From the NCBI GenBank assembly GCA_029582155.1, contig CM055906.1, positions 17,718,437 through 17,782,436 on the forward strand: DNA of 64,000 bases, given 5' to 3'. The stretch comes from Panopea generosa. Lineage: Eukaryota > Mollusca > Bivalvia > Adapedonta > Hiatellidae. Below are positions 16,180-55,597 of this stretch, piece after piece. Each line of letters begins with the position of its first letter. Positions within the stretch are counted from its first letter, which is position 1. The notes beneath the pieces were generated by a model. It was not told where the DNA came from, did not search any database, and was given only the letters and a program-made list of their open reading frames with translations. The translations under genes and the position numbers were made by a program.

Positions 16180-19100
16180 CAAGGGTATAATGTCAAATTA
16201 CTTGCTGGTTATCTGGTCCAAATCTTTGCTGGGTATCTAAAAACAAAACATCTTTAAACATCTTTTGTGTCCAATTTTATTCTTAGTTGGGTATAATGTC
16301 CAATAACTTACTGGATATCTGGTCCAAATCTCAAAATAAAACATTTTTAAACATCTTTTTATTCTTTGTTGGGTACATTGTCCAATTACTTGCTGGTTAT
16401 CTGGTCCATATTTTTGCTGGGTGTCTCAAAATAAAACATTTTTAAACCTCTTTTGTGTCCAATTGTATTCTTTGTTGGGTATATTGTCCAATTACTTGCT
16501 GGTTATCTGGTCCAAATCTTTGCTGGGTATCTCAAAATAAAACATTTTTAAACATCTTTTGTGTCCAATTTTATTCTTAGTTGGGTATATTGTCCAATTA
16601 CTGAGCTGGTTATCTGGTCCAAATCTCAAAATAGAACATTTTTTAACAACTTTGGTGTCCAATTTCATTCTTTGTTGGGTACATTGTCCATTACTTGCTG
16701 GTTATCTGGTCCAAATCTTTGCTGGGTGTTTCAAAATAAACATTTTTAAACATCTTTTGTGTCCAATTTTATTCTTAGTTGGGTATATTGTCCAATTACT
16801 TGCTGGTTATCTGGTCCATATCTTTGCTGGGTGTCTGAAAATAAAACATTTTTAAACATCTTTTGTGTCCAATTTTATTCTTAGTTGGGTATATTGTCGA
16901 ATTACTTGCTGGTTATCTGGTCCAAATCTTTGCTGGGTATCTAAAAAAAAAACGTTTTTAAACATCTTTTGTGTCCAATTTTATTCTTAGTTGGGTACGT
17001 TGTCCAATTACTTACTGGTTATCTGGGCCAAATCTCAAAATAGAACATTTTTTAACATCTTTGGTGTCTAATTTCATTCTTTGTTGGGTACATCGTCCAA
17101 TTACTTGCTGGTTATCTGGTCCAAATCTTTGCTGGGTGTTTTAAAATAAACATTTTAAAACATCTTTTGTGTCCAATTTTATTCTTAGTTGGGTACATTG
17201 TCCAATTACTTGCTGGTTATCTGGTCCAAATCTTTGCTGGGTATTTCAAAATAAAACATTTTTAAACATCTTTTGTGTCCAATTATATTCTTAGTTGGGT
17301 ATATTGTCCAATTACTTGCTGGTTATCTGGTCCAAATCTTTGCTGGGTATCTCAAAATCAAACATTTTAAAAAATATTTTGTGTCCAATTTTATTCTTAA
17401 TTGGGTATATTGTCCAATTACTTACTGGTTATCTGGTCCAAATCTCAAAATAGAACATTTTTTAACATCTTTTGTGTCCAATTTTATTCTTAGTTGGGTA
17501 CATTGTCCAATTACTTGCTGGTTATCTGGTCCAAATCTTTGCTGGGTATTTCAAAATAAAACATTTTTAAACATCTTTTGTGTCCAATTTTTTTCTTAGT
17601 TGGGTATATTCACAGTATCCTAGCGTACAGTAAGCCGAAACGGAAGTTGCTGATCATATTTGCTTCAAATAATGTGTAGTATACATGCATTCGGCATTCG
17701 TTTTCAGTTTGATCACTGCCAAACTGACAAAAGGCCATTCAAATTTTGACTTTGTGTTCGCATATTTCACTGTGTATATAGTTTCTGGTCTATTATTGTG
17801 TTGGCATGGAAGCAACAATGTGCCCGGCACGTAGGTTACCTATCATCAGGGTCGAATGGCTAGATGTCGAGAAATTGACAGTTTTTATCAGTCACTGCGA
17901 GTTACGTGACTGTACGCCTAGTTGCAACTGTACGCAATCGTTAGTTGTGTGTTGGGTATATTGTCCAATTACTTACTGGTTATCTGGTCCAAATCTCAAA
18001 ATAGAACATTTTTTAACATCTTTGGTTTCTAATTTCATTCTTTGTTGGGTACATTGTCCAATTACTTGCTGGTTATCTGGTCCAAATCTTTGCTGGGTGT
18101 TTTAAAATAAACATTTTTAAACATCTTTTGTGTCCAATTTTATTCTTAGTTGGGTACATTGTCCAATTACTTGCTGGTTATCTGGTCCAAATCTTTGCTG
18201 GGTGTTTCAAAATAATCATTTTTAAACATCTTTTGTGTCCAATTATATTCTTAGTTGGGTATATTGTCCAATTCCTTGCTGGTTATCTGGTCCAAATCTT
18301 TGCTGGGTATCTCAAAATCAAACATTTTTAAAAATATTTTGTGTCCAATTTTATTCTTAATTGGGTATATTGTCCAATTACTTGCTGGTTATCTGGTCCA
18401 AATCTTTGCTGGGTGTTTTAAAATAAACATTTTTAAACATCTTTTGTGTCCAATTTTATTCTTAGTTGGGTACATTGTCCAATTACTTGCTGGTTATCTG
18501 GTCCAAATCTTTGCTGGGTGTTTCAAAATAATCATTTTTAAACATCTTTTGTGTCCAATTATATTCTTAGTTGGGTATATTGTCCAATTTCTTGCTGGTT
18601 ATCTGGTCCAAATCTTTGCTGGGTATCTCAAAATCAAACATTTTTAAAAATATTTTGTGTCCAATTTTATTCTTAATTGGGTATATTGTCCAATTATTTA
18701 CTGGTTATCTGGTCCAAATCTTTGCTGGATATCTCAAAATCAAACATTTTTAAAAATATTTTGTGTCCAATTTTATTCTTAATTGGGTATATTGTCCAAT
18801 TACTTACTGGTTATCTGGTCCAAATCTTTGCTGGGTATCTCAAAATCAAACATTTTTAAAAATATTTTGTGTCCAATTTTATTCTTAATTGGGTATATTG
18901 TCCAATTACTTACTGGTTATCTGGTCCAAATCTTTGCTGGGTATCTCAAAATCAAACATTTTTAAAAATATTTTGTGTCCAATTTTATTCTTAATTGGGT
19001 GTATTGTCCAATTACTTAGCTTGTTATCTGGTCCAAATCTTTGCTGGGTATCTCAAAATCAAACATTTAAAAAAATATGTGTCCAATTTTATTCTTAATT

Positions 19101-19240
19101 GGGTATATTTGCCAATTTCTTTCTGATTATCTGGTCGGAAAATAAAACAATTTTTTAAACATCTTTTGTGTCCAATTTTATTCTTAGTTGGGTATATTGT
19201 CCAATTACTTGCTGGTTATCTGGTCCAATTCATGACCAGT
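16180..19240. repeat. 106 bp tandem array (about 26 units)
   Basis: The unit contains TTGGGTATATTGTCCAATTA, CTGGTTATCTGGTCCAAAT and TTTGCTGGGTATCTCAAAAT. Between 18,571 and 18,889 the period is exactly 106 bp. Some units lack the TTTGCTGGGT block (about 85 bp), giving long/short alternation. Because 106 is not a multiple of three, the apparent ORFs (FLVGYIVQLLAGYLVQIFAG) rotate through all frames and end; they are not genes. The array is split at 17,611-17,950. Confidence 0.95.
17611..17950. mobile_element. 340 bp insertion inside the 106 bp array
   Basis: Unrelated, CpG-containing sequence interrupts the array. GTTGGGTATATT (17,599-17,610) recurs at 17,951-17,962 on the other side, giving a 12 bp direct repeat consistent with a target duplication, although the array itself could supply it. 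The insert has GCGTACAGT near both ends in opposite orientation. A short ORF begins MEATMCPARRLPIIRVEWLD and runs out into the array. The class is unknown. Confidence 0.5.
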
Positions 19241-19452: not shown

Positions 19453-22400
19453 ATGAATCGAAAACGTCGGAGAACTCTGAACAGAGATGAGGATGAAAGG
19501 GGATTGAGCCATGTAAGTATAAAAATATTAAAGATTTATATTAAGCTTAATGGTGAAGAGGCAATTTAAAAGGGTACCTAATGTAAAAGAAAAAAGTTAC
19601 TTATTGGATTTCTCTTTTCATTATTATTCTGTGTCATTATAGACTGTGGTCTGGGGCACAAATAGTTTGTTGAACATATAAGGTTTTACGCCACATTTTT
19701 TAAAATTTCAATCAATTACTTACTCAGCTACCACTTTTGGTATCTACTTAAACGTTCATAATAAGGCAGATATATTAGTGAGCTTGTAACAGATATAAAA
19801 ATCCCCTTTTTTTGACTTGAAAAGTACTGTAATAAGTTAATTTATTTGACATGAACCAGTATTTGTATACTTTACAGCTCAAGAAACCTGTACCTTTCAC
19901 TTCCTTGGACGATCTGTATTGGTCCTCGGTACCTGGGTTGTCAAGAAAAGTTAAATGGCCAGTGAAGGTGCAAGATTGGTCAATGGATCCTGATGTGTTG
20001 GTTTTTTGCAAGGCAGATGATGCAAAGTAAGAAACATATTTTAAGAATTGAATAGAGTAATAATAAAGTTATATTGTACCCCATGCAAACTGTTATAAGG
20101 TAGAGTCAACCTGTACGTTGGCAAGTTAGTTGGTTGTGCTGTTTAGAAAATTACGTGCTGTGTACTACTTTCACTGTTCTAGATTAATTCTCTTTTAACT
20201 TCTGTATTGAACTATTTGGCTGGTAGTTGTGAGTGGCAAAATTATACTAGATTAGAATCCCATTCTAAGGGATTCTTCACATCACACCATGTCACAACAA
20301 ATCCCACTTTTAATAAATAGGATTGATAGGTCATGGTTAAGTGAAACCTTCTTACAATGGTACTTTAAATTGTGTTGAAGGACAACATACAATGTAAATG
20401 CATTCATGTTTCAGTTTAAAGGTCAAAAGAGATCAGCTGGTGCCATTCCCAGGTCCATTTGATAAATTAAAACAAATTGGTTCAGGTAGTATTGTTAAAG
20501 TTATGTTGAGTTAATTGTTTAAAGTTGTGTTGTTTGTCCATGGAAGTACACTACCCAAATTTGCACAGAACGCAGACTGGTCCCTGTGGTGTAGTGCTTT
20601 AATATGAAAAACTGCTAGTCCATGGTTTGGATATTGAAGCACCACACCTGACCAAATACCTGAAGTAGTGATTTGCTATGACAGTACCTCAAATATTAAG
20701 CACCATCTGACAAAAGTTGATGACTGTGACTTTCATTTTTTGGCAAATTATGCCCCTTATTGACTTTTTTTGTGGTTAAAGTGTTAAACTAGTTTATAAG
20801 CTACGGTGTCTCAACAACGACTTGCTCTTCCCATCCACAAACATTAACTCTAGGCTTTTTCACAATGCCCTTTCTGTGACTTAACATTAAATAGTTGAAC
20901 ATGCTATTTTTCTGTTAGTCTTGTTTAGTTGATTTTTACAATTCAAAAATTTTCAAAAAATGAAACCAATTGTTATTCAGTGCTTAAACCTATATCAGTA
21001 TGAGAAAATTCAATGTGCTTATCTTAAGTGTACTACCATTGACATTTACATATGTATGTACAGTGGTGCTCAACGAACATGCCTAAACCAAAATGAAAGT
21101 CTTAAAAAAGAGAGAAAAATCCCAAAACTTCATCCTAATTTTCCTATTTGTATAGGTAGTTGTAAATCTTATTCAGGAAAAAATAAATAAAAAAGACATT
21201 TTCAGAGTTGCAAAATGTTAGTCGTCCTAAAAGCTTTAAAGAATAGGTTAGATACCATGTCAGGCAGCTTTACTTTTTGTTGGTTTTTGTTGGGTGGGGG
21301 GAGGGGGGGCGGTGTCAGATTTAGCTCTAAAATTTCCATAGGATTGAACATTTAACAGCATTTAAACATTGTTTTTAATGCTTTTGCAGAAGATGTACAC
21401 ACATCTATGCAAGTTTAAACAGTTTATTGTTGAAAAATAAACAATATGATATATTGGTGTATCGTCAATATATGCCTTTCGATATATCGTTATCGAGGAT
21501 TTGCAAAAAAGCGAATCAATGACAGCTCTAACAAATAGATCTTTAATAATTGCTGACAGACCTGGGGATGATTACATTGATCAGTAATTGATTTAATTAC
21601 AATTACTTTCAGATTTTATTGTAATTGATTATGATTGATTACTCAGACTTGCCTCTGTAATCAATTAAATTACAATTACTTTAAGAGAGTAATTGATTGA
21701 TAATTGATTACATTCAATGTATAACTGTAAAACAAAAGTTAAACTGTATCATGTAAAATAAAGGCATCCTTTATATTTTAAATAGTTTCCTGTTAAATCT
21801 GATAGTAATCAATGTCAATCAAATTGTAATCATAATTACTGACTGAATTTAAGCTGTAATTGATTAATTACAATTTATATAATCAATTTTGGGCAAGGTC
21901 ATCAATTACATGATGATAACAGTGTAATCATGCAATCGATTAAAAAATAGATGATTGCGATAAATGATTACCAAATTGCTGTTGAAAAGAAAGATTTTGT
22001 AAATCATATTTTCTAAATATATGTAATACGTTTTATGATTTATACATGAAGTTTGGTTTGGTTTCAGTCTATGCTAATATCATAAAATTTCATTGCTTAA
22101 ATTATAAAAACCTATTCCAGTCAATGTCTAGTGTTATGACTCCTGTTTATAATGACACAAATAGTAGCAACTTGTTTTTATTTTTCTTACTAGCTTTCTT
22201 GACACAGAAAAAGCAAATCAACACATTAACAGCCTTTTTAAAGGACATTGAATGGGCTTGTAGCGATGAAAGTAAAGAGCCTCCTAGCAAGAGAAAGAAT
22301 AGAAGTATGAAGGTAGAGCAGAAAAATCCCAGTTACAGTTATAGGAGACAAGAAACCAGTAGTTCTGACAACATGTCTGACAAAGAAGAGTTGAATGATG

Positions 22401-25400
22401 GAAGGAGTATCAGTGTTAATGAAAGTATAGAGCCACCTAATGAGAGAATGGACAGTAAGATAAATGTAGATCAGAAAAGGCTCAGTAAAAGTTGTGGGGG
22501 ACATGAAAAAAGTAGTTCTGACAACATGTCTGACAAGGAAGAGTCATATGATGAAAGTAATATCAATGTGAATGAAGGTAAAGGGTCTCCAAACGAGAGA
22601 ATGGACGGTAGGATGAATGTAGAGCAGACAAATCCCAGTTACAGTTATAGGGGACAAGAAACAAGTAGTTCTGACAACATGTCCGACAAGGAAGAGTTGT
22701 ATGATGGAAGGAGTATCAATGTTAATGAAAGTATAGAGCCACCTAATGAGAGAATGGACAGTAGGATGATTGTAGAGCAGAAAAAGCACAGCAACAGTTT
22801 AGGGGGACATGAAACAAGTAGTTCTGACAACATGTCTGACAATGAAGAGTTAGGTGATGAAAACCATATCAATATGAATGAAATTGAAGAGCCTCCTATT
22901 GAGAGAAAGGACAGTACGATGAATTTAGAGCAGAAAAAGCCCAATAACAGTTGTGGGGGACATGAAACAAGTAGTTCTGACAACATGTCTGCCAAAGAAG
23001 AGTTAGGTGATGAAAACCGTATCAATATGAAAGAAATTGAAGAGCCTCATATTGAGAGAAAGGACAGTACGATGAATTTAGAGCAGAAAAAGCCCGGTAA
23101 CAGTTGTGGAGGACATGAAACAAGTAGTTCTGACAACATGTCTGACAATGAAGAGTTAGGTGATGAAAATCATATCAATATGAATGAAATTGAAGAGCCT
23201 CCTATTGAGAGAAAGGACAGTACGATGAATTTAGAGCAGAAAAAGCCCAATAGCAGTTGTGGGGGACATGAAACAAGTAGTTCTGACAACATGTCTGACA
23301 ATGAAGAGTTAGGTGATGAAAATCATATCAATATGAATGAAAGTGAAGAGCCTACTATTGAGAGAAAGGACAGTACGATGAATTTAGAGCAGAAAAAGCC
23401 CAATAACAGTTGTTGGGGACATGAAACAAGTAGTTCTGACAACATGTCTGACAATGAAGAGTTAGATGATGAAAACCGTATCAATATGAAAGAAATTGAA
23501 GAGCCTCATATTGAGAGAAAGGACAGTAGGATGAATTTAGAGCAGAGAAAGCCCAGTAACAGTTGTGAGGGACATGAAACGAGTAGTTCTGACAACATGT
23601 CTGACACAGGAGAGTCTTGTGATGACAGTGACTCTGACGATGTATACATATCAAGTGAGGTAGGATTTAAATCAAAGAACAAGAGTAAAAAAATTAAAAA
23701 ATTAAGGGATATGAATAACCGTGACATATATGTTCGCAAGTTAACAACATCTAAGTACCATGTACTTACTGGAAAAAGGAAAAAAAATGATTTTGACTGG
23801 AATCAAGAACATTGCTGCAAATTCTGTAAAGAAGTGAAAACTAACATTGCAAAACATTTCAAGGGGACTCATAAAAATGAGAAAGAAGTAGCTAAAATTG
23901 TTAAGCTTTCAATGCAGAATGGTCCAAAAGATGAAGTAGTGATGGCAAAGTGGGCCCTGTTGCGTCAAGAAGGAGATCATGAAAACAACATGAAAGTTTT
24001 GGATGCAGGCAAGGGGGAATTCATTTTATCAAGACGCCAACATGGAAAATTAGATGTTGGTCGATATGGACCATGTCCATCGTGTTTTGCCTGGTTGAGA
24101 CTTGAGAAAACGATGTTCAGACATCAAAGTAGATGCCCAGCAGTCATTCTAGGAAATGAAACTGCAGATGTAACTGCTGGGGAACTTAGAGTTCGAAGTC
24201 TTGGATTAGCTGGAAAACTAAATCAACAAGCTAGCAGAGCACTGACAGATGAAGTGTTTCCCATCATGACAAATGACGACATATCCTGCATAGCACAGAA
24301 TGATCCCGTAATTGTAGCCTTAGGAAACCTTTGGATGAGCAAAAATATTGGTAATTGTTTAAAAAGGAAGTATTATACCTCATCCAGAATGAGAGGTGCA
24401 GCCAGACTCCTTATGAATGCTAGGCAACTTTCAGGATTGGATTATTCAATGCATGAAGTTCTTGTTACAGAAAATTTCAACGACTTGGTAAAAGCAGCTT
24501 TGATGACTGCCTCTCCAGAAATGGATGATCTGGAAGATCTTAAATCTCTGTCAACGGCCATAAAAGCTGGTTATGACATTAAAAGAATGTTGGGTTCGAA
24601 ATGGGCACAGGCATTAAAAACCAAATCCATCGAGGACAAAAGAGAAGCAAAAGATGTTTTGAAATTGATGGAAATTGAATGGTCTGTTAGAGTAACAAAA
24701 CTTGCATCCACTATTTTGACCCAGAGGCGCTTCAACATGGAAAAAAAATTGCCAGAACCCTCAGATCTGGTTGACCTTAACAAACATTTGAAAAATGAGA
24801 TTAGCTCCCTGGATTTGACAGACACATCATCAGGAGCATTTCAAAGGGCTTGTCACCTAGCAGAAGCCAGGCTTCTATTGTACAACAAAAGACGAAGTGG
24901 GGAAGTGGAAGGAATCAGGTATATCATATTGTCTTTTGCATGTTTCATCTAAGTTCTGCTTTAGCCGATGCTAGGGGGCGTGAAGGTAGCTTGCATTTAC
25001 CATTACCGTCCATGAAAGGGCTCAATCAAACTGAGCCTGCAACATTTTTAAATTTTGCCGTATTGATCAATTTTCAAGTGTGCAATTGTTTTACAATTGG
25101 CCAAGGAACAAATTAATTTTTAGCTTAAGTGGAAGTCTTTAGCAATCTTTGTAATTCACTAGGTCTGCTTCATCATTGGCAATGGTGATGGTGGCCCTTT
25201 ACTTATTACTTGATGGATTCTTTTCATATTCACAAACAATGGTCTTTTAGGTCAACAGCTTTCCTTACTTTCGTGGATCTTTGAGCTTAACTTTCAAATG
25301 ACCTTTAAAACAGACGAAGGTTGGAGTCAGGCGACTCTTGTTTCTTTATTGCAAAGACAAAATAGAGGATGACAATTTAAAAAATGAAGTATAATAATGT

Positions 25401-28400
25401 GTATGTATTTAATTGTATTTATTAAGTAAAAACTATTTCTTTGAGGTAAAATGACTTTTAAAACAGACAAGTGTTGGGGCTGTCTAGCTTTTGTTTAATT
25501 ATATTGTATTTGTCACCTCAGAGTGCCAGAGTACGTGAGAAGACAAAGTGGCATTTCCAACCTAGACAAGGTAATGAGATCAGAACTTTCAGTACTTGAG
25601 AAGAAACTTCTAGAAAACCAAGATCTCCTTGAAACCAGAGGCAAGGTAATTAAATCAGCAACTTGGCAGCTTGCCTAGTAAAAGTTGTCATTGATTTTCT
25701 TTTCATATCTTCCATACCAATGTATCGAAAGGTATATATCGTCAATACATCAATATATCATATTGTTTATTTTTAAATAATAAACTCTTTTAACATGCAT
25801 ACTTAAGAACCTATCTTTAGCAAAAGCATTAAGATACAATATGTAAATGCCATTAAATGTTCAGTTTTAGAAAATTTAAAACAATTATTTCATTAACAAA
25901 GCTGTGAATTTCTAAATAGTGGTGCAACTTGCATGCTTTTTTGACAGGGAACATGTTTCTTTTCATATTTCAGTTTTAATTTGTTTTTCCAGTTTGGTCG
26001 TGGAGTTCCTGTAGTTATACCTCCAGAACTCAAAGATGTACTGAAGTATCTAGCCGCATTCAATGTTCGCACCAGCGCTGCAAGATTGTCATCAAATAAA
26101 TATTTGTTTGCCAACACCAGTAAGTAAATTGTCAGAATGTTGAAATTTCTGGCTATCAAGCAGACATTGTGAGTTATAATCTACTAATGACACTGTTTTG
26201 AAAGGCTGCTGAACCGACATGACTTGATGGTTATGAAATCACTTCTTTTTACCCCATCCACTGAATCAAGTAGGGCAGCATGTGGACTATTTTCTGTTAA
26301 ATGGCATAGGTCACCTTAGAAAATCCTTGAACAGTGGGTGTAGGTTAACAGATATATGACCTAAACAGTTAAGGATTTCAGCCACAAACACTAACTTCAT
26401 CATCATTTTTATTTTCAATATTTATTTGCCATTTAATTTTTTGTTTCTTAGTAGTGTTCAATTTATTCTTCATTTTACATGGAGCAGATATCAGATTAAA
26501 GGCGAGATAGATGTGATTTAAGCAATATTTTTTTTTGACAAAAATCAAAGGGAGTGAATACTTCTCTCCCTTTCATATGAATATTGAAGAGTTTAAATAT
26601 CATGGCTAACAAGTAAGTTTAAATGAAATCTTAGAAAATGGCTTGGTGAATGATGATATTATATCAAATTATGCCTAAAAATGCATCAAAATATATATTC
26701 CACATTAACCAATGGGAGTTGGGGTGGAAGACTTACACAAAACATACAGAGCTTCTCCAATCTATGAAATTAAGTTATAATGGTTGGTTCAATTTTGTCA
26801 GGCAAAGGGGTGATCAGAGCATACGACAGTCTGAAGACTATTTGTGATGAGGTTGATCTACTCAAACCAGAGAAAATCACATCTGTGAATTTGAGGAAAT
26901 ACACCGCAACAATATCACAGGTATTGTATTGTTAATTTACTCTTTACCCATTTGTTGAAAAAACATTCTGGCTAATTTATTGAAATTGAATCAAAATTGG
27001 CCTTTAGAAAATAAGTAAAGACACCAGTAAAATCTATTAATACAAGATGTTGATTTCTTTTACCAAATACATAAACCTTGATCTGAAGAATTTTTAGGTT
27101 AAGTTAAAAGCTGGGTTTTAAGATCACATCTAAAATAAAACAACATTCCCTTGCAATTCAAAATGCTGATCTTAAATAGTTTAAAAACAGTACTTTCTAG
27201 GCAAGTGATTGAGGAATCCAGATCATTTGTTTTTGTACTGATAGATTTGTAAAGGTTTTAAGTGTCTTACAAATAACAATGCTTTTTGTACATGTTAAAA
27301 ATTGATTTTTAATTTGAAGATTATATGTTTTGTATATGGTAGGTGTTCGATTTAAGTGACCAGCAGCAATCCTGGTTGGTGAACCACTTGGGGCATAGTA
27401 TGGATATTCATAAGATACACTACAGACAGACGTCTGGAGCAATAGAGCGAATTGACATCTCAAAGTTGATGCTTCTTCAAGAGTTTAATCTCACATCCAA
27501 ATATGCAGGCAAACAGCTGAAGGATATCCAGTTGAAAGGTAAGAGACAGAAAATTTGGTAAATATGCTAAACACTTACATACTAATGAGGAAAATATTAC
27601 GATAATGTTTAAAGGATGTTGGCAAATCTTAAGCCTTGTGGGGAAAGGCAGTGCTTGTTTATTCAGTACATCCGAGAGGTCAGCATATACTAATGCAAAG
27701 CCTAACTATCCTAATTTTTGACAACTTCACAGGCATTCATTCCCTTTAAAATTGTTTTTTTTAGGATATTGTACCTTCCATTTGCTCAACTGTTATGGCT
27801 TTAACAGCTTTCGTTTATCAAGATAGTTGGATGAACAGTTAATCTTTAAAATGTCTGATTTGAACATTTGGTTATTATTCTTGCATTTTTTAAAGAATTG
27901 CTGTTTCCTGAAGATGGGGAAGCAATTGCAATGGACCCGGATCTTGAGGAGATATCTGATGAAGTACAAATTGAAGATGAGGAATATCAGCCACACCAGG
28001 ACAAAGGTACAAACATAACCTGTCACCTTGTTAAATTTTTAGCTCAACTTTTTTTTTTTTTGAAAAAAAAAAATAGAGGTGTATTGTTACAGTCATGTCG
28101 GCATTGCCATTGCCGTCCGCAAACTTTAACCTTGATCATAACTTTTTAAGTTCTTGGTGTATTGTCTTCATACTTAGCCACAACAACCCTTGGGACAAGA
28201 CCTTAAAGTAGACCAGACTAAGTTTGACCTTCATTCATAAATGACCTTGACCTTCAAGGTTAAATATCTAAATTTTGCTTGTTTTTTGCTATTAGTGGCT
28301 ATAACTTTGTTATTTTTGAATGGATTGTCTTCAAACTTGAACACAATAATCTTTTAGGATAGACCCTCAAGTTAAACAGACAGACCTTGACCTTCACTCA

Positions 28401-30995
28401 TAAATGACCTTGACCTTGAAGGTCAAATTATTGAAATTTTCATTTTTTCTGCTGTAACTGGCTATAACTTTGTTATTAATGCATGGATTGATTTCATATT
28501 ATAACACAACATTCTTTAGGAAAAGACCTTCATGTATATCAAACTCAAATTGACCTTGGCTCTTTAATGACCTTGACCTTGAAGGTTAAATTATTGAATT
28601 TTCACTGATTTTTGCTATAATTGTAACTTGGTAATTAATAAATGGATTATCTTTATACTTGACAAAACAACATTTTGGACGAGACCTTCTATAAGGTTGA
28701 ACTGACCTTGACCTTTAAATGACCTTGACCATCAAGGTCAAATTATTGAATTTTGGTTAAAACCTTTTGGACAAGAACTTCTTAAAGGTTGAACTGACCT
28801 TGACCTTCAGCTTTAAATGACCTTGACCATCAAGGTCAAGTTACTGAATTTTGGTTAAGATGTCATAATTTTGTTATTTATGTACAGATTTCATTTCATA
28901 AATGGACAAAACAGCTCTTGTGACCAAACGGACATGTTGAATGAATTAGAAATGACCTTGACCGTCAAATGATTGAATTTTGCTTATATTTTTTTAACTT
29001 TGTCAATGATTCATACTTTGACAAAGGAACAAGTGTGACTAGACAGACCTATTAAAATTTAAAAAAAGGAAAAACTTAATTTTTTTTCTTTAATTTTCTT
29101 TTTAAAGATTTGTTTAAACCAATAATTTGTTTGCTCATAGAAAAAGTAAAAACGTCGAGCTTTGCCCCCGCCCAGCAGTGGCTCTTGTTATTTTCTTAAG
29201 ATTTAGAGGGTAACAGATTAGTTATTTGTGTAAAAGTGGTAATAATAAGGTATGTGCAGTTTTTCAATAAAGATTTTCAAGTTTTATTTCATTAGATATT
29301 ACATATCTATACCCCCATCATAAGTGGCTATATGGGAAACACATTTTGAGGGTGAGATGGTCTAGTGGTAAAGGTGTCTACCCCTCAACCCAGGGATCGT
29401 TGGTCTGAATCCCACCCTGGGGTCATGACCTTGATTCTTCATATGAACACCAGTACTGGTTGATTCCGGAAGTGGACTCTAAAGTGGTTCAAATAAGCTG
29501 TAAGCTTTCATCACAATCGAGCTAAAATAAATGTGTTTAAACTAAACACGTTATGTTGGGTTGTGTCTCATCACATCATACCCCATAATTTAAAAATTAC
29601 ATGGGCATAAAATTTCAAGTTGATAGATTTTAGTGTGAAAAAATGCTACACATAAAGAGCATTGATGATTTGTTGGTTTTCTGAGGTGTTATTACCTTTA
29701 AACAATTTACAAAGTTGACCTGTCCGTAGCTCAATAAGTACATGGGAAATTACCTTTTGGGGGTATTAAACACTTTGCAATAGCTCTAGTTAAATATTTT
29801 TGTGAAGTTATTGTCCATTTCATATTTGAAGTCCAGCGCATAGCATACTACATAACTTTAAGATGAATTTCAGTAGAACTGCAGCCCAAAAGAATGTAAA
29901 CTGCATTTTGGAAAAAAAAATTTCATATTGCTTCTGTCATAGTATGTTGATGAAAATTTATGAAAAACATTTTAATATGTTTAATCTTTAGCCGCTGACA
30001 AAGTCTTCGATGAATTTGACTTCACAGAGGAAGATGAGATCAATCCCAAACCCAAAAAGAAGTCTAATACTGGTATGTCCTAGTCTCTAATAATTTATAT
30101 AAATAATTTATAGATATATGTAAACTGATGTTAAAATAATGATTGTTTGCCCACCTCATGAAGTGCTTATCGTAAGCATTGTAATTGGTGGCTGTGTGTT
30201 GTCAGTCACATTAGTAGTTAACATTCAACTTCAAGGTTCCCTGTTTGTAATTGAAAAAAAAAATTGATCACATGTCGTGTTGAGTTACGAATTACAACTG
30301 TTAAGGAACAACGCCATATTTTTAGCTCGACTATTTTTCAAAGAAAAAAATAGAACTGTATAAAGTTGTCACAGTCATGTTGTCGTTGCAGCTGCCATCT
30401 GAAAACTGTTACATTGATCATTATTCTTTTCATTAATGATCAGATTCTCTTCTTACTTGGTCACAACCCTTTGGACAAGACCTTCAAGAAGATCCAACTG
30501 AACCTTACATTTATTCATATATGAGCTTGAGACTCAGTCAAATTTTTGATTGTTTTTTTGCTATATTCAACTCTTAACTTTACTATTTATGAATGGATTT
30601 TCTTCATACTTAAACAGAACAACCCTTAGGCTCTTGTTGATAATGGCCATTGGGCCCAATATCGCAAAGGTATTCAGGTATCCAATATAACAAATTTAGC
30701 ATATATTCCACTTGCAGTGCCTTCTTTCTCTATATATTTTGATGCATTCTCAATTCCTATTAATTTGTTAGCCTTTTTTTTCATTGCAGGAAAAAGAGAA
30801 CAATGGAACCAAGTGGAAACTCAAGAAATGAAAACGCTCTTCAAAGACAATTTGGAAACATTGACGACTCCAGGAATGAAAGAATGCTTAAAAGCAATTA
30901 AAGTGAGCAAGAAAAACAATGGACAATTGTGGCGAAGACCTTGGGAGACAATTAAAAAGAAAGTTTGGAATGAGATCCAGAAGCTTAAGATTTAG
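19453..30995 (+). CDS. tyrosine-recombinase-like zinc-finger protein, 11 exons, 1,322 residues
   Basis: Exons: 19453-19512, 19878-20026, 20415-20485, 22194-24918, 25522-25645, 25993-26119, 26802-26920, 27343-27538, 27896-28006, 29992-30072, 30790-30995. All introns are GT-AG and every phase matches. The sum is 3,969 bp ending in TAG with no internal stop. Domains: basic start (MNRKRRRTLN); nine 51-residue acidic repeats (120-578); C2H2 finger (C635, C638, H648, H653); CCHC motif (C721, C724, H737, C741); tyrosine-recombinase catalytic domain (about 940-1160) with R994 in NKRRSGEV, R1117 in NLRKYTAT, H1140/H1143 in NHLGH and Y1152, nine residues after H1143; acidic linker; C-terminal Trp-rich domain (LWRRPWETIKKKVWNEIQ). 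I recognise the architecture from uncharacterised multi-copy proteins of fish and molluscs. The fold is that of Crypton/integrase tyrosine recombinases. Whether it is a domesticated host gene or an element's own gene is open. Start choice: first ATG after the acceptor. Confidence 0.88.
20486..21339. other. intron 3, first part
   Basis: Contains a weakly tRNA-like stretch (about 20,580-20,650, CCCTGTGGTGTAGTGC) and a G-run (GGGGGGAGGGGGGGCGG at about 21,296). No coding content recognised. Confidence 0.35.
21340..21490 (+). repeat. interspersed repeat, left arm of an inverted pair
   Basis: Contains TTAATGCTTTTGCAGAAGAT, AAATAAACAATATGATATAT and GCCTTTCGATATA. The same words occur in reverse orientation at 25,720-25,870. 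The two copies flank exons 4 and 5 of the recombinase-like gene. Confidence 0.75.
21560..21990. repeat. AT-rich imperfect repeats of ATTGATTAC type
   Basis: Dense, irregular recurrence of TAATTGATTACAATTACT-like words on both strands, giving many small inverted pairs. No period can be fixed. Confidence 0.6.
22271..23647 (+). repeat. nine in-frame 153 bp (51-residue) repeats in exon 4
   Basis: Exactly nine head-to-tail units of 153 bp, no indels. The invariant core is ETSSSDNMSD (EKSSSDNMSD in unit 2, DNMSA in unit 5), followed by an acidic stretch (NEELGDEN) and a short basic patch (IERKDS). The nearest units (5-8) differ at only a few positions, while units 1-4 are more diverged, so the array has grown from the C-terminal side. 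SSSD and SDNE fit casein kinase 2 acidic sites. Predicted disordered and nuclear. The central units are prone to unequal exchange. Confidence 0.95.
25522..27538 (+). CDS. catalytic part of the tyrosine-recombinase-like gene (exons 5-8)
   Basis: Sub-feature of the gene at 19,453. The first Arg (R994, in KRRSGEV) is at the end of exon 4, followed across the junction by EGIRVPEYVRRQSG. Exon 7 carries NLRKYTATISQ (second Arg, R1117; the usual HxxR His is Val here). Exon 8 carries LVNHLGHSMDIHKIHYRQTS, with the LGH His and, nine residues on, the Tyr nucleophile, the same spacing as in bacterial and phage recombinases. After the Tyr come ISKLMLLQEFNLTSK and the GKQLKDIQLK tail. All catalytic positions look usable. 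Confidence 0.85.
25720..25870 (-). repeat. interspersed repeat, right arm of the inverted pair
   Basis: In reverse it matches 21,340-21,490 over its whole length, including AAATAAACAATATGATATAT and ACCTTTCGATAC. It lies in intron 5. Confidence 0.75.
28033..29190. mobile_element. non-autonomous element with repeated TGACCTTGACC words, in intron 9
   Basis: Starts near TTTTTAGCTCAAC and ends TCGAGCTTTGCCCCCGCCCA, then GTGGCTCTTGTT. The interior is an imperfect tandem array of about 120 bp units, each with TGACCTTGACCTT and often CATCAAGGTCAA. A partial relative lies at 30,318-30,640, and another right end (CGAGGCTTGCCCCCGCCC) at 31,895-31,938. No coding content. The AGCTC...CTCTTGTT ends resemble Helentron-type elements. 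Confidence 0.6.
29345..29530 (+). mobile_element. SINE family C, full copy
   Basis: tRNA-like head with A-box region GATGGTCTAGTGGTAAAGG and B-box-like TTGGTCTGAATCCCACC. The body carries ACCAGTACTGGTTGATTCC and AAGCTTTCATCACAATCGAG. Minus-strand relatives lie at 12,935, 42,815 and 43,720. Located in intron 9. Confidence 0.75.
30318..30640. mobile_element. truncated relative of the 28,033 element, in intron 10
   Basis: Begins TTTTTAGCTCGACTATTTTT, then AGTTGTCACAGTCATGTTG, matching the start of the 28,033 element; the array is short. It breaks off before exon 11, and the matching right end sits beyond the gene at about 31,895. Exon 11 and the 3' UTR therefore lie between what look like two halves. 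Confidence 0.5.
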
Positions 30996-36163: not shown

Positions 36164-38960
36164 TCATACACGTTGTACAAGTACAGGTCATGTGACTGTG
36201 TCAGTATGTAAGTACAGGTGATGTGACCAGGACAACATACAAGTACTGGTCATGTGACTGTGTCAGTATGTAAATACAGGTGATGTGACCAGGACAACAA
36301 ACAAGTACTGGTCATGTGACTGGGTCAGTATGTAAGTACAGGTGATGTGACCAGGACAACTACAAGTACTGGTCATGTGACTGGGTCAGTATGTAAGTAC
36401 AGGTGATGTGACCAGGATAACAAACAAGTACTGGTCATGTGACTGTGTCAGTATGTAAGTACAGGTGATGTGACCAGGACAACAAACAAGTACTGGTCAT
36501 GTGACTGGGTCAGTATGTTAGTACAGGTGATGTGACCAGGACAACTACAAGTACTGGTCATGTGACTGGGTCAGTATGTAAGTACAGGTGATGTGACCAG
36601 GATAACAAACAAGTACTGGACATGTGACTGTGTCAGTATGTAAGTACAGGTGATGTGACCAGGACAACAAACAAGTACTGGTCATGTGACTGTGTCAGTA
36701 TGTAAGTACAGGTGATGTGACCAGGACAACTACAAGAACTGGTCATGTGACTGTGTCAGTATGTAAGTACAGGTCATGTGACCAGGACAACAAACAAGTA
36801 CTGGTCATGTGACTGTGTCAGTATGTAAGTACATGTCATGTGACCAGGACAACTACAAGAACTGGTCATGTGACTGGATCAGTATGTAAGTACAGGTGAT
36901 GTGACCAGGACAACAAACAAGTACTGGTCATGTGACTGTGTCAGTATGTAAGTACAGGTCATGTGACCAGGATAACTACAAGTACTGGTCATGTGACTGT
37001 GTCAGTATGTAAGTACAGGTCATGTGACCAGGACAACAAACAAGTACTGGTCATGTGACTGTGTCAGTATGTAAGTACAGGTGATGTGTCCAGGACAACA
37101 AACAAGTACTGGTCATGTGACTGTGTCAGTATGTAAGTACAGGTGATGTGACCAGGACAACAAACAAGTACTGGTCATGTGACTGGGTCAGTATGTAAGT
37201 ACAGGTGATGTGACCAGGACAACAAACAAGTACAGGTCATGTGACTGTGTCAGTATGTAAGTACAGGTGATGTGACCAGGACAACAAACAAGTACTGGTC
37301 ATGTGACTGTGTCAGTATGTAAGTACAGGTGATGTGACCAGGACAACTACAAGTACTGGTCATTTGACTGTGTCAGTATGTAAGTACAGGTCATGTGACC
37401 AGGACAACTACAAGTACTGGTCATGTGACTGGGTCAGTATGTAAGTACAGGTGATGTGACCAGGACAACAAACAAGTACTGGTCATGTGACTGTGTCAGT
37501 ATGTAAGTACAGGTGATGTGACCAGGACAATTACAAGTACTGGTCATGTGACTGTGTCAGTATGTAAGTACAGCTGATGTGACCAGGACAACAAACAAGT
37601 ACAGGTCATGTGACTGTGTCAGTATGTAAGTACAGGTGATGTGACCAGGACAACAAACAAGTACTGGTCATGTGACTGTGTCAGTATGTAAGTACAGGTG
37701 ATGTGACCAGAGAAACAAACAAGTACAGGTCATGTGACTGTGTCAGTATGTAAGTACAGGTGATGTGACCAGGACAACAAACAAGAACTGGTCATGTGAC
37801 TGGGTCAGTATGTAAGTACAGGTGATGTGACCAGGACAACAAACAAGTACAGGTCATGTGATTGGGTCAGTATGTAAGTACAGGTGATGTGACCAGGACA
37901 ACAAACAAGTACTGGTCATATGACTGTGTCAGTATGTAAGTACAAGTGATGTGACCAGGACAACAAACAAGTACTGGTCATGTGACTGTGTCAGTATGTA
38001 AGTACAGGTGATGTGACCAGGACAAAAAACAAGTACTGGTCATGTGACTGGGTCAGTATGTAAGTACAGGTCATGTGACCAGGACAACTACAAGTACTGG
38101 TCATGTGACTGTGTCAGTATGTAAGTACAGCTGATGTGACCAGGACAACAAACAAGTACAGGTCATGTGACTGTGTCAGTATGTAAGTACAGGTGATGTG
38201 ACCAGGACAACAAACAAGTACTGGTCATGTGACTGTGTCAGTATGTAAGTACAGGTGATGTGACCAGGACAACAAACAAGTACAGGTCATGTGACTGTGT
38301 CAGTATGTAAGTACAGGTCATGTGACCAGGACAACAAACAAGAACTGGTCATGTGACTGGGTCAGTATGTAAGTACAGGTGATGTGACCAGGACAACAAA
38401 CAAGTACTGGTCATGTGACTGGGTCAGTATGTAAGTACAGGTGATGTGACCAGGACACCAAACAAGTACAGGTCATGTGACTGTGTCAGTATGTAAGTAC
38501 AGGTGATGTGACCAGGACAGCAAACAAGTACTGGTCATGTGACTGTGTCAGTATGTAAGTACAGGTGATGTGACCAGGACAAAAAACAAGTACTGGTCAT
38601 GTGACTGGGTCAGTATGTAAGTACAGGTCATGTGACCAGGACAACTACAAGTACTGGTCATGTGACTGGGTCAGTATGTAAGTACAGGTGATGTGACCAG
38701 GACAACAAACAAGTACAGGTCATGTGACTGTGTCAGTATGTAAGTACAGGTCATGTGACCAGGACAACTACAAGTACTGGTCATGTGACTGTGCCAGTAT
38801 GTAAGTACAGGTGATGTGACCAGGACAACTACAAGTACTGGTCATGTGACTGTGTCAGTATGTAAATACAGGTCATGTGACTGAGCCCATATTTCAGTAC
38901 AGGTCATGTGACCAGGACAACATGCAAGTACAGGTCATGACTGGGTCAGTTTGTAAGTAC
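36164..38960. repeat. 62 bp minisatellite, about 45 units
   Basis: The unit is GTACAGGTGATGTGACCAGG, ACAACAAACAAGTACTGGTC, ATGTGACTGTGTCAGTATGT, AA. A 61 bp variant has ACAACTACAAG. Point variants (GTGATG or GTCATG; TGTGTC or TGGGTC) are shared in blocks, showing local homogenisation. Diverged units continue to 39,110 and resume at 50,116 on the far side of the Harbinger element. Confidence 0.95.
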
Positions 38961-39896: not shown

Positions 39897-41830
39897 TTTG
39901 TATGACCGGGTCATTGGTGGTCTGGTAGTATAGCAAGCAGAAGGTAGTGGGTGTGATCCATGGCCCGGTAATTGGTGGTCTGGTAGTAAAGCAAGCAGAA
40001 AGTGGTGGGTGTGATCCTGGGCCGGGTCATTGGTGGTCTGGTAGTATAGCAGGCAGATGGTGGTGGGTGTAATCCACGGCCGGGTCATTGGTGGTCAGGT
40101 AGTATAGCAGGCAAAGGTAGTGGGTGTGATCCATGGCCCGGTCATTGGTGGTCTGGTAGTATAGCAAGCAGATGGTGGTGGGTGTGATCCACGGCCCGGT
40201 CATTGGTGGTCTGGTAGTATAACAAGCAGAAGGTGGTGGGTGTGATCCACGGCCCGGTCATTGGTGGTCTGGTAGTATAGCAAGCAGATGGTGGTGAGTG
40301 TGATCCACGGCCCGGTCATTGGTGGTCTGGTAGTATAGCAAGCAGATGGTGGTGGGTGTGGTCCACGGCCTGGTCATTGGTGGTCTGGTAGTATAGCATG
40401 CAGAAGGTGGTGGGTGTGATCCACGGCCGGGTCATTGGTGGTCTGGTAGTATAGCATGCAGAAGGTGATGGGTGTGATCCATGACCCGGTCATTGGTGGT
40501 CTGGTAGTATAGCAAGCAGATGGTGGTTTGGTTGTGATCCACGGCAGGGTCATTGGTGGTCTGGTAGTGTAGCAGGCAGATGGTGGTGGGTGTGATCCAC
40601 GGCCGGGTCATTGGTGGTCTGGTAGTGTAGCAAGCAGATGGTGGTGGGTGTGATCCACGGCCCGGTCATTGGTGGTCTGGTAGTATAGCAAGCAGAAGGT
40701 GGTGGGTGTGAATCCGGCCCGGTCATTGGTGGTCTGGTAGTATAGCATGCAGAAGGTGGTGGGTGTGATCCACGGCCGGGTCATTGGTGGTCTGGTAGTA
40801 TAGCAGGCAGATGGTGGTGGGTGTGATCCATGGCCCGGTCATTGGTGGTCTGGTAGTATAGCAAGCAGATGGTGGTGGGTGTGATCCAGGGCCCGGTCAT
40901 TGGTGGTCTGGTAGTATAGCAAGCAGAAGGTGGTGGGTGTGATCCATGGCCGGGTCATTGGTGGTCTGGTAATATAGCAGGCAGAAGGTGGTGGGTGTGA
41001 TCCATGGCCCGGTCATTGTTGGTCTGGTAGTATAGCATGAAGAAGGTGGTGGGTGTGATCCATGGCCGGGTCATTGGTGGTCTGGTAGTATAGCAGGCAG
41101 AAGGTGGTGGGTGTGATCCACGGCCCGGTCATTGGTGGTCTAGTATAGCAAGCAGATGGTGGTGGGTGTGATCCACGGCCCAGTCATTGGTGGTCTGGTA
41201 GTATAGCATGCAGAAGGTGGTGGGTGTGATCCATGGCCGGGTCATTGGTGGTCTGGTAGTATAGCATGCAGAAGGTGGTGGGTGTGATCCACGGCCGGGT
41301 CATTGGTGGTCTGGTAGTATAGCATGCAGATGGTGGTGGGTGTGATCCACAGCCTGGTCACTGGTGGTCTGGTAGTATAGCAGGCAGAAGGTGGTGGGTG
41401 TGATCCACAGCCTGGTCACTGGTGGTCTGGTAGTATAGCAGGCAGAAGGTGGTGGGTGTGATCCACGGCCGGGTCATTGGTGGTCTGGTAGTATAGCAGG
41501 CAGATGGTGGTGGGTGTGATCGACTGCCCGGTCATTGGTGGTCTGGTAGTTTAGCATGCAGAAGGTTGTGGGTGTGATCCACGGCCCGGTCATTGGTGAT
41601 CTGGTAGTATAGCAAGCAGAAGGTGGTGGGTGTGATCCATGGCCGGGTCATTGATGGTCTGGTAGTATAGCAGGCAGAAGGTGGTGGGTGTGATCCATGG
41701 CCCGGTCATTGTTGGTCTGGTATTATAGCAGGCATAAGGTGGTGGGTGTGATCCACGGCCGGGTTATTGGTTGTCTGGTTGTATAGCAGGCAGAAGGTGG
41801 TGGGTGCAATCCACGGCCCGGTCATTCCAA
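39897..41830. repeat. 58-59 bp minisatellite in intron 1 of the Myb-like gene, about 33 units
   Basis: The unit runs GGTCATTGGTGGTCTGGTAG, TATAGCAAGCAGATGGTGGT, GGGTGTGATCCACGGCCC. Variants (AAGCAG, ATGCAG, AGGCAG; ATGG or AAGG) are scattered. GTGGTCTGGTAGTATAGC and GTGGGTGTGATCC resemble a tRNA A-box and B-box, suggesting the unit descends from a SINE head. G-rich on the + strand. Confidence 0.95.
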
Positions 41831-45727: not shown

Positions 45728-45747
45728 AGGAAAACAATTATCATCAG

Positions 45748-47330
45748 TATTTTGGACAACATAAGAGAAAATGATACTCTGATTCAACAATATTTAAAGA
45801 ACATAATTTACAAATTCGATTTTCTCTTTCTACATTATTATATCTGCCTGATTCTATTTCTAAAGTATGGGCACTAAGACGTAAACGTGTCAGATTTTTG
45901 TGATTATTTTCATTTGAAATAAAATCTAAGTACTCTTCATATTTAAAATCTACTTTAAACTTATTAAAATATTGTAGTTTTTGCATAGTCTGGACAGATG
46001 CAGTCCACGTTTGCATGTATTGGTCTCTAATTCTTTGTTTAAATAAGATAGAATAGTTTATAACTGGGTTGAAATTTTGCCAAATGTCTCCTAATCCTAG
46101 ATTATTTATGAAAGATTCCATACATTTGGCCCAATATTTATTATTTTGAAAGTTACATTGCTCATTAAAAGATTTATACAAAATTGAATTCGGTTGCTTC
46201 ATGATCTTAGTCCAGTACGTAATGGAACGTTCTTTAGCAATCACAAATATAGGAAATCTACCTAGTTCACCTAAAACAGCTATGTTCGGAGTTTGCTGTT
46301 TTACACCTAAAATATGTTTGCAAAATTTTATTTGTAATTTATCTAAATCTTTAAATTCATATATTCCCCAAATTTCCGACCCATATAAAAGTATAGGTAA
46401 AACCATTGAATCGAAAAGTTGTAACTTGGTTTTAATATCTACATTGATTCTACTTAACACCGAAAGCAAACAATTATACGCTTTAAGTGCTTGCTCTTGA
46501 AGAGCTATTATCGCATTTGCCATGCTTCCTGTATATGAAAAACGTATTCCTAAATAACAAAATGTATCTACTGTTTCTAATTTCTCATTATTGATAAACC
46601 ATTCGTAGTGATGTAATTGCTTTCTTTTCTCAAATATGCATACTTTTGTTTTATTAACATTAATTTTTAAACCTCATTTAGCTGAATATTGAAAAATATT
46701 ATCAAGCTGTAATTGTAAACTATGTGGATCAGTCGTAAATAGAGCTATGTCATCGGCAAAAAGTAATATATAAATAGATAATTGATTAATGTCCTTATCA
46801 GTTAAATTGTTAAATTCAATATTATCGGTTATATCATTGATGAACAAAATAAAAAGTAAGGGTGACAAGGGCTCCCCTTGGTTTAAACCAAGGGTTACAT
46901 CAAAGAAGTCTGAAAAAGTCATATAAGTGATTTTATACAAGATTTAACGTTACTATAGATCGCTTTTATAATATTAATCATTTTGCAACTTATACACGAT
47001 TTGTCGAGCTTCACCCACAGTGCATCATGTATAACAGTATCAAAAGCCTTTTCATAATCTATAAATGTACAGTATAATTTAGATTTAGACATAAGTACTT
47101 TTTGTATAATCGAATGAAGATGCAATCTGTCGTGCTATGATTGTCCCTGAAGCCAAATTGGTGTTCGTTGAACACATTTTCAGATTCGCACCATTTATTA
47201 ATTCTGTTTCTTAACGCAAGCGAGAATATTTTAGATAGAACATTTATAAGAGTTATTCCACGATAATTGGAGGGATTATCACGGTCGCCTTTCTTTAATA
47301 ATAAACATCCATTAAACTATTCACTAAATA
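45748..47330 (-). mobile_element. LINE fragment with reverse-transcriptase core, inside the Harbinger
   Basis: On the minus strand: KKGDRD near 47,315; FIDYEKAFDTVIHDALWVKL (47,070-47,020); GLNQGEPLSPLLFILFINDI (about 46,890); the catalytic LLFADDIALF (about 46,760); then a 259-residue region ending ICKLCSLNIVESEYHFLLCC. Damage: a frameshift at about 46,935 (and another near 47,120) and a TGA at about 46,675 where the family has Trp (SAKW). No 3' UTR or tail: the element ends within the CCPKY motif at the edge of Myb-like exon 5, which is odd for a target-primed insertion. Also 5'-truncated. Related to the 5.2-6.2 kb LINE. Confidence 0.85.
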
Positions 47331-47824: not shown

Positions 47825-48215
47825 TCAAATACTGTTATATTCAGTTTGAGAACCTTGTTGTGGGTTTAGATATGGCGTTAAAAGCCAACGCTTACAAGGA
47901 TATCCACTGTCCCCCAACATGTAATAATGTCCAGCTGGCATACGTCCACTTTCAAATATTGTTTTAATGCCACTCTCATTTAGAACCCTGCTATCATGGG
48001 TAGATCCTGGCCACTTTGCAACCATATCAATTATTCTGTCATCAGCATCAAATACAATTTGTGTGTTTATGCTGTGATATCTTTGCCTATTGATAAAATC
48101 TGGCTCATTTTCACTTGGAGCACTTATTTGTATGTGAGTTCCATCAATCAACCCCACAACATTGGGGAATCCTGCAATGTCGAAGAACTGCTGTTGGGTC
48201 TGTTGTAAGAGCAAC
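47825..48215 (-). pseudogene. PIF/Harbinger transposase (HARBI1-like, DDE_Tnp_4) fragment
   Basis: Minus-strand exon starting after the acceptor TCTTACAACAG: QQFFDIAGFPNVVGLIDGTH (first catalytic Asp in LIDGTH), APSENEPDFINRQRYHSIN, DDRIIDMVAKWPGSTHDSRV, then YYMLGDSGYPCKRWLLTPY (second Asp in GDSGY) and YLNPQQGSQTEYN. The last catalytic residue (the Glu in a VIERAFG-type motif in this family) is absent before the stop, and neither the N-terminal nor the C-terminal part was found, so this copy cannot encode an active enzyme on its own. A GTATTT donor at the end might lead to a lost exon. It faces the Myb-like gene, the common arrangement in this superfamily. Confidence 0.88.
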
Positions 48216-48239
48216 AACCTTGTTAACACCATGCGATTA

Positions 48240-49430
48240 CAGCAGCAACATATAACATATTATGATAAACACTAGGTAGAATACCTAGTTTCTGGCAATA
48301 GTTATACACAATAGGTTTAGTGATGGTCAACCCTATGTAAATACCAAATGATAAGGGGGTATGTGGTATGATACTTAAATATAACAATACCATTCAAGTG
48401 CTAGCTCAATGAAATAAATCAATATATTTATCTATTAAATGAATTGTTACTTTTTATTTATTTATTACTCAATTAATTGATATTATGATAATATGGTTTC
48501 ACAGTATTGATATCAGTTTGATGTTAAAACATGGAATAGATTTGATATAACTGATTTGAAAAAAAAGTCACAGAACATGTCTTTCATAATGCAATAATAC
48601 TGTTTGTACATGTTACTGAAACTATGATATATTTGTACACAAAGCATTGTGAGAAAGTAATGTTTATTGATATCTTACTTACTTTATATCACTGATGGTG
48701 TGATGATATCACTAATAACACTGATATATATACACATGTATGGTGGCACTTATAAAGATTGATTTCAGTGAGTGTTTCTGTATTTATATAATATATAGAA
48801 TTATACTATATACCAGTTAATGTCATCAAATTCCTGCAGATGGTTGGTTATGTTATAAATGATTCCATTGCATCATTTTATAGAATCTTTATTGTGATTA
48901 AATTATCACCCCCTGTATTTCTCCAAGGTTCTGAGTGATGGAAATAACAAGACCACTGTAGCCATGCCTGCTGGAAGGGATGTCAATTTGAAAAATAAAA
49001 CTTTGGTAAACTGAGATTCTATTCAACGATCAAGTTTTAAAGTTCATTCTGCATATTCATTGTTTGATGCAGGTTGTCATTGTCTTCACACCACCTTTAT
49101 TATTTTGTTGTGAGAGTTACTCTGGAGGTTTCTACTTCCTGTTATGCAGCTTTGTGTTGGTTCACAATACTACTCATTTATTTATTATTTAATATAATGT
49201 GCCAAATTATTTACCTATTAATGTCGGATGAAATCATCATCTCATTACATATATTGTAATTATTTATGACCATGGTGAAAGTCTTACAATAAAATAGTTA
49301 CAAACATGCAATATGCTTTGTTTTATATTTGTTTCCAACCATCATCATATGTTGTCATGAAAACATGAATATAGAATAGTTTCGTTCAAATATTAAGCGT
49401 CATTTTTATGCTATCGATGGCTAACAGACA
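48240..49430. other. Harbinger right part, AT-rich, no gene recognised
   Basis: Expected to hold the transposase N-terminal exons on the minus strand, but I could not find a convincing one. A short + strand stretch (48,930-48,990, TCTCCAAGGTTCTGAGTGAT) has mild coding character. The rest is AT-rich with ATTGATAT words. Confidence 0.35.
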
Positions 49431-54433: not shown

Positions 54434-55597
54434 GTTAAACATGGAATATTGTAATGTTGTTTATATGATACCCAACACCACTTTTATCCTCCATTGGTGC
54501 TTATGTACAACTATTGTAATGTTGTTTATGTGACACCCAACACCACTTTTATCCTCCATTGGTGCTTATGTACAACTATTGTAATGTTGTTTATGTGACA
54601 CCCAACACCACTTTTATCCTCCATTGGTGCTTATGTGCAACTATTGTAATGTTGTTTATGTGACACCCAACACCAGTTTTATCCTCCATTGGTGCTTATG
54701 TGCAACTATTGTAATGTTGTTTATGTGACACCCAACACCAGTTTTATCCTCCATTGGTGCTTATGTGCAACTATTGTAATGTTGTTTATGTGACACCCAA
54801 CACCAGTTTTATCCTCCATTGGTGCTTATGTGCAACTATTGTAATGTTGTTTATGTGACACCCAACACCAGTTTTATCCTCCATTGGTGCTTATGTACAA
54901 CTATTGTAATGTTGTTTATGTGACACCCAACACCAGTTTTATTCTCCATTGGTGCTTATGTACAACTATTGTAATGTTGTTTATGTGACACCCAACACCA
55001 ATTTTATCCTTCATTGGTGCTTATGTACAACTATTGTATTGTTGTTTATGTGACACCCAACGCCAGTTTTATCCTTCATTGGTGCTTATGTACAACTATT
55101 GTAATGTTGTTTATGTGACACCCAACACCAGTTTTATCCTCAATTGGTGCTTATGTACAACTATTGTAATGTTGTTTATGTGACACCCAACACCAGTTTT
55201 ATCCTCAATTGGTGCTTATGTACAACTATTTTAATGTTGTAAATGTGACACCCAACACCAGTTTTATCCTCCATTGGTGCTTATGTACAACTATTGTAAT
55301 GTTGTTTATGTGACACCCAACACCAGTTTTATCCTCAATTGGTGCTTATGTACAACTATTGTAATGTTGTTTATGTGACACCCAACACCAGTTTTATCCT
55401 CCATTGGTGCTTATGTACAACTATTGTAATGTTGTTTATGTGACACCCAACACCAGTTTTATCCTCAATTGGTGCTTATGTACAACTATTGTAATGTTGT
55501 TTATGTGACACCCAACGCCAGTTTTATCCTCCATTGGTGCTTATGTACAACTATTGTAATGTTGTTTATGTGACACCCAACACCAGTTTTATCCTAA
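54434..55597. repeat. 65 bp minisatellite, about 18 units
   Basis: Unit CTATTGTAATGTTGTTTATG, TGACACCCAACACCAGTTTT, ATCCTCCATTGGTGCTTATG, TACAA. Very homogeneous; variant positions (CACCACTTTT or CACCAGTTTT, TGTGCAA or TGTACAA, CTCCATT or CTCAATT) occur in blocks, with the CTCCATT/CTCAATT pair alternating toward the right, suggesting a two-unit (130 bp) turnover step. Confidence 0.95.

Follow-up and report, generated by a model that had tools for sequence, protein, structure and literature searches.

A predicted spliced tyrosine recombinase gene of Panopea generosa suggests a class of animal transposons that is still little known

Does an intact, spliced gene for a tyrosine recombinase (YR) in an animal genome serve the host, or does it belong to a transposon? 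The question is raised by a gene of eleven exons in a 64-kb stretch of the bivalve Panopea generosa (C13:17718437-17782436 of a 1.47-Gb assembly); the whole stretch is called the window, and positions are counted from its first base. In the original prediction the gene was described as a domesticated or cryptic DNA-rearranging recombinase. Its splicing, YR fold and catalytic residues have stood and purifying selection is supported, whereas domestication is the less probable of two readings, its kin in the same genome being recently moved elements. The explanation that is on balance favoured here is that the gene encodes the recombinase of an animal lineage of large, intron-bearing YR DNA transposons, and that the copy in the window is an old one, intact, without close companions and under selection. 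Gene and mobile kin together would point to a little-known class of animal transposons.

The exons splice to 1,322 codons and a stop, in agreement with the 1,323 codons counted earlier; all of them are present with AG/GT borders and matching phases, and no internal stop occurs. Taken together, proteins of other animals cover exons 4-8 and 11 in protein comparison. The joins 4/5, 5/6, 6/7 and 7/8 are gap-free in the alignment of the seven relatives shown, and join 3/4 is gap-free in the sea urchin protein P0043, whose N-terminus matches exons 2-4 (35% identity over 89 columns, E 1e-15, from a single pair). This match supports the acceptor at 22194; an alternative acceptor at 22068, which would add 42 codons without counterpart in the urchin protein, was rejected. 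Among the relatives compared, no real homology support was found for exons 1, 9 and 10. Judged from the sequence, the gene model is beyond chance and most of its joins are backed by relatives. One relative, P0001, is 43% identical over 97% of the query and consists of a single continuous frame of 818 amino acids (aa) on a contig of 3,128 bases, which looks like an assembled transcript.

The protein is identified as a tyrosine recombinase by way of a structural model: the structure predicted for a relative of 43% identity can be matched to XerH, Cre, integron integrase and lambda integrase across both the core-binding and the catalytic domain. The fold suggested earlier is thereby borne out by structure prediction, but not by Pfam profiles, which gave no match for the window protein; nor did its sequence match PHROGs or PDB. 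In the Foldseek search against PDB the best E-value was 2.6e-3, with no match below 1e-3 for either of two models, and the Foldseek viral library gave three matches at 5e-4 to 8e-4, one of them named integrase. The two-domain fold is common to the relative's model and these enzymes, whereas the window family has only about 10-14% identity with them and carries additional eukaryotic domains.

In the spliced translation R994, R1117, H1140, H1143 and Y1152 sit where they had been placed by the original prediction, and the catalytic set is kept in nearly all of the 51 relatives chosen for alignment A5 (gapped rows are left out of all residue counts; Table 1). The alignment thus gives five of the six YR catalytic residues as kept. 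Compared with the tyrosine recombinase superfamily, the family has the two-domain fold and the residues R, K, R, H/W and Y; the box-II (HxxR) His is missing. It is replaced in 50/50 relatives (Thr in 40, Val in 8, Ser in 2), and in the window protein its place is occupied by V1114, three residues before R1117. This position varies in the superfamily (it is Lys in topoisomerase IB) and hence is not decisive.

The missing His and the several likely DNA- or chromatin-binding domains around the YR part would suit a catalytically dead protein that uses the fold for binding only, like the DUF3504 genes. Such a role is considered improbable, as Arg I, Lys, Arg II, His III and Tyr are near-invariant and relatives have moved. 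According to the account of DUF3504 genes in PMC3212892, ZMYM2/3/4, KIAA1958, KCTD1, QRICH1 and WOC are spliced genes of the host that contain a domain descended from a YR, in some cases alongside zinc fingers; in the known domesticated Crypton/DUF3504 genes neither the catalytic Tyr nor the second Arg has survived. The window family keeps both and is therefore unlike them.

The P. generosa genome was searched with the YR core, which gave 87 matches; 97 of the 163 candidates were scored, and statements on copies refer to these. Apart from the window's own gene, the highest exon-4 identity is 53%, and a lone exon-8 piece on C15 reaches 81%. The proportions of synonymous (pS) and nonsynonymous (pN) differences from the paralogues are 0.74-0.85 and 0.33-0.48 in the exon-4 core, and 0.89-1.02 and 0.14-0.21 in the catalytic exon 8. 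Synonymous sites are saturated while the protein is conserved, and because of this saturation no ratio of nonsynonymous to synonymous rates (dN/dS) is given for the paralogues. The pattern speaks for strong purifying selection on the window's gene and against neutral evolution. Paralogue K (L028-L031) has exons 4-8 and 11 with matching borders, and paralogue M has exons 4, 6, 7 and 8. Outside the exons, 15-40 kb of the window has only a 314-base repeat in common with K and, at E 1e-10, nothing in common with M or the C15 piece.

The evidence that ties the gene to transposons comes from six loci (L009-L020; on C6, C1, C19, C3, C14 and C6), which are every locus among the matches listed for one exon-8 class. 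They share one element of 10,897-14,287 bases, in which long pieces agree at about 96-99%; its ends correspond between the loci, and the flanks are unrelated. The ends read CTCTAACACTTTCC and AAGTGTTAAATGTTGG (the pair can also be written CTCTAACACTTTCC... / ...GTGTTAAATGTTGG), and one base is changed near the 5' end of copy E. Such dispersed near-identical copies with common ends were found for these six sister elements, not for the window's gene. The six have moved recently in the same genome. Since they carry exons of the family, the family includes mobile YR elements with introns, and the window's gene therefore belongs to a lineage with transposons. The nearest relative of the six is J on C16 (support 0.97, 54% identity).

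Each of the 12 element ends adjoins a TCTG array, and all of these arrays have one strand sense. Their lengths range from 51 to 447 bases and some are compound, the pure TCTG run beside the end being 24-444 bases long; past them the flanks have only five short matches of 45-147 bases. No TCTG array of at least nine units was found in 244,963 control bases of the same genome, window included. The outer parts of the arrays vary by locus, with CCTG in one and TGTA in another, so that insertion into existing TCTG arrays fits better than carriage of the arrays by the element, although no empty site was seen. When joined, the ends would read AAGTGTTA-AATGTTGG-(TCTG)n-CTC-TAACACTT, where AAGTGTTA and TAACACTT form perfect 8-bp inverted arms in 5/6 copies around a TCTG-containing spacer, as a YR site is laid out. 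An N-terminal exon is present in the elements, together with exons 7, 8 and 11; exon 6 is present in A and D, and E and F were tested without finding it. The frames of these N-terminal exons and of exons 7, 8 and 11 are open, except for one frameshift each in C (exon 11) and E (exon 7).

Two further groups of repeated YR genes occur in the genome. L021-L024 (C2, C19, C17, C4) have an uninterrupted YR frame of 574 aa and common stretches, the longest about 9 kb, at 91-99%, with ends that lie beyond the sequence fetched. L032-L037 (C18:33.53M, C6:44.03M, C1:53.35M) are copies of an intron-bearing, sister-type YR gene, those on C18 and C6 being 97-98% identical. Clean ends for the C18/C6/C1 group were considered and rejected, as the third copy showed the 3' break to be an indel and the 5' flank to be common to one copy. 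A tandem repeat near 16-17 kb varies in copy number between the copies of this group.

Relatives were found in molluscs, echinoderms, fish and others; in the viral and prokaryote collections none was confirmed among 12 and 38 pattern matches, respectively. The Arg I motif is carried by 58/62 of the proteins compared. Among the 58, the frames of 30 stop within 14 residues past Arg I (27 of them exactly five residues past it) and 28 read on. Such stops are expected of a phase-2 intron with a GTAA donor, and intron 4 is therefore probably conserved in the family in position and phase.

Several observations weigh against the favoured reading, besides the replaced box-II His and the best PDB E-value from Foldseek. 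Exons 4-5 are absent from the four copies profiled (A, D, E, F), and exon 4 of the window matches none of the six elements; without these exons, which hold the zinc fingers, the core-binding domain and Arg I, the elements could not make the window protein alone and were therefore probably mobilised in trans by a full-length relative. For L032-L037 no ends are claimed, and no TCTG array was present in the sequence fetched for L021-L024 and L032-L035, so that the TCTG link concerns one family only. As to the window copy, no near-identical copy occurs among the scored matches, no element ends were recognised and TCTG arrays are absent from the window; it thus gives no sign of recent movement and looks old and alone.

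These last features would also fit a domesticated recombinase, whose gene came from an ancient YR transposon, was retained for some task of the host and can still cut and rejoin DNA; such a task might be programmed rearrangement, defence of the germline genome or control of repeat copy number. This is regarded as a real possibility, although a less probable one than an old transposon copy. In its favour are the single copy among the scored matches, saturated synonymous sites beside a protein conserved relative to paralogues, the eleven exons with one intron seemingly conserved in position and phase, molluscan and sea urchin relatives of like architecture, the kept catalytic residues and a pair of opposed repeats in introns 3 and 4, whose 83% likeness suggests long residence. 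However, relatives in the same genome moved recently, selection on the recombinase of a transposon yields an equal signal, some paralogues are decaying (a stop in exon 6 of L029; exon 4 not found within the 10 kb fetched at C15), and phyla are intermingled in the family tree, parts of which are weakly supported. The window copy may be either a lone old element or a domesticated recombinase.

If the gene is the recombinase of a transposon, the following course can be proposed. The zinc fingers, the N-terminal domain and the helical domain at the C-terminus would guide the protein to chromatin and to short inverted arms at both ends of the element. With the phosphate activated by Arg994, Arg1117, His1143 and Lys1043, attack by Tyr1152 would yield a 3'-phosphotyrosyl bond, and a tetramer would swap strands in a short core sequence; a circle would be excised and then inserted at a matching core elsewhere. 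The core of the sister element would be TCTG, between the two 8-bp inverted arms, whereas no core is assigned for the window's own copy.

Among the closest known systems are the SET/Tudor/THAP-zinc finger-YR proteins of fish, echinoderms, an annelid and molluscs. They have in common with the window protein the same two fingers, a core-binding and catalytic YR domain and an equal catalytic set, with Thr, Ser or Val at the box-II His; a related C-terminal domain is present in 30/47 of those reaching far enough, and tandem repeats precede the fingers in 30/81. They differ in their N-terminal domain; four copies in the P. generosa genome (L021-L024) read through the place of intron 4 in a single frame, and in a tree of 70 sequences the window clade is split from SET-type relatives with support 1.0, many inner branches being weak. 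In the fish Misgurnus anguillicaudatus, several loci encode proteins of the SET-zinc finger-YR type (P0122-P0140) with a mutual identity of 97-100%, which suggests recent spread in this fish.

The lineage would work like a Crypton (CryptonA/CryptonI), a DNA-only element with a YR as sole recombinase, and Cryptons are the known class of such transposons in animals, including a mollusc and a sea urchin (PMC3212892). That the gene is an ordinary animal Crypton is nevertheless judged very improbable. Animal Cryptons are described in section 8 of PMC3212892 without a C-terminal domain and without terminal repeats, whereas the window gene is spliced, encodes 1,322 aa and has fingers and extra domains, among them the conserved exon 11 domain. 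Moreover, no DUF3504 family at E 0.01 was among the Pfam matches of the 51 relatives, although no Crypton sequence was compared. Membership is thus not supported. ALOG/DIRS1-like YR retroposons of marine animals also join a YR to a zinc-binding part, a zinc ribbon inside the DNA-binding domain (PMC3537659). They are retroposons, whereas no reverse transcriptase was seen by eye among the open reading frames of at least 90 aa inside element A. In open-licence literature (Repbase lying outside the search) no description of the window's gene family was found.

A wider suggestion is made tentatively, and with less weight than the favoured reading. Animals may hold a superfamily of large YR DNA transposons, widespread yet undescribed, in which the recombinases come from spliced genes and are joined to chromatin domains (SET, Tudor, THAP, PWWP-like). 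At least one family would use a tetranucleotide microsatellite, (TCTG)n, as integration core, and members domesticated with their catalytic competence intact, the window's gene among them, would act on host DNA. Were this true, animal YR transposons would be far more varied than the Crypton and DIRS classes suggest, and the microsatellite target would explain, for one family, how a large element is inserted with little harm. It would also offer an animal YR of plausible catalysis in which to look for DNA rearrangement, and a natural example of insertion into simple repeats.

The domains around the recombinase are listed in Table 1. Both zinc fingers lie upstream of the recombinase as had been reported, with ligands kept in relatives; the C2H2 ligands C, C, H and H are found in 47/47, 47/47, 48/48 and 48/48 rows with a letter there. 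The nine copies of the acidic repeat were also recovered at their 51-aa spacing. Between these copies dN/dS is about 1.0, which is near-neutral. At the equivalent site many family members have tandem repeats with unrelated units. Both the mobile elements and L026 carry an exon related to N-terminal exons 2-3. Searches of Pfam and PDB, one with a PDB profile included, gave no match for this domain, so that the name PWWP-like is a suggestion. Two PDB profile matches of alignment A5 were discounted, as they concern unrelated proteins and the N-terminal stretch before the fingers.

Table 1. Coordinates of the gene, its predicted functional parts and other features of the window
Feature	Position	Strand	Remarks
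Whole gene, 11 exons, 1,322 aa	19453..30995	+	open frame, AG/GT borders, consistent phases
Exons 1-4	19453-19512, 19878-20026, 20415-20485, 22194-24918	+	AG/GT borders, phases match
Exons 5-8	25522-25645, 25993-26119, 26802-26920, 27343-27538	+	AG/GT borders, phases match
Exons 9-11	27896-28006, 29992-30072, 30790-30995	+	AG/GT borders, phases match
Exons 2-3, N-terminal domain, PWWP-like by eye (W..V.G..RKVKWPVKV..VFCKADD..PFPG)	19878..20485	+	match to sea urchin P0043
Exon 4: tandem repeats, two zinc fingers, core-binding domain, first catalytic Arg	22194..24918	+	
Nine-fold 51-aa acidic repeat (153-bp tandem repeat)	22266..23606	+	
C2H2 zinc finger, residues 634-653	23813..23872	+	
C2HC zinc finger, residues 721-741	24074..24136	+	ligands kept in 50/50 with letter there
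R994, catalytic Arg I	24893..24895	+	51/51 in A5
Intron 4	24919..25521	+	position and phase probably conserved (frame stops); same border in paralogue K
K1043, beta-hairpin Lys (RGK)	25643..25645	+	49/51
R1117, catalytic Arg II	26894..26896	+	R in 49/50
H1143, catalytic His III (LGH)	27394..27396	+	50/50
Y1152, predicted nucleophile	27421..27423	+	49/49
Exon 11: C-terminal helical domain resembling homeodomains	30789..30992	+	conserved; folded in predicted structure
Opposed repeat copies, introns 3 and 4	21406-21510, 25697-25801		83% alike
Large minisatellite (106/410-bp units)	16357-19228		ends about 225 bp ahead of start codon
Long minisatellite arrays	36177-38881, 39909-41826, 54447-55595, 59840-60859		
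Reverse transcriptase remnant	45744-47316	-	several frames; RVT_1 1.4e-7 at 47062-47316
DDE_Tnp_4 transposase fragment	47828-48259	-	1.8e-23

No identity was found for pieces of other reading frames in the window. Long minisatellite arrays recur along its 64 kb, and its reverse strand carries remnants of a reverse transcriptase and a DDE_Tnp_4 transposase.
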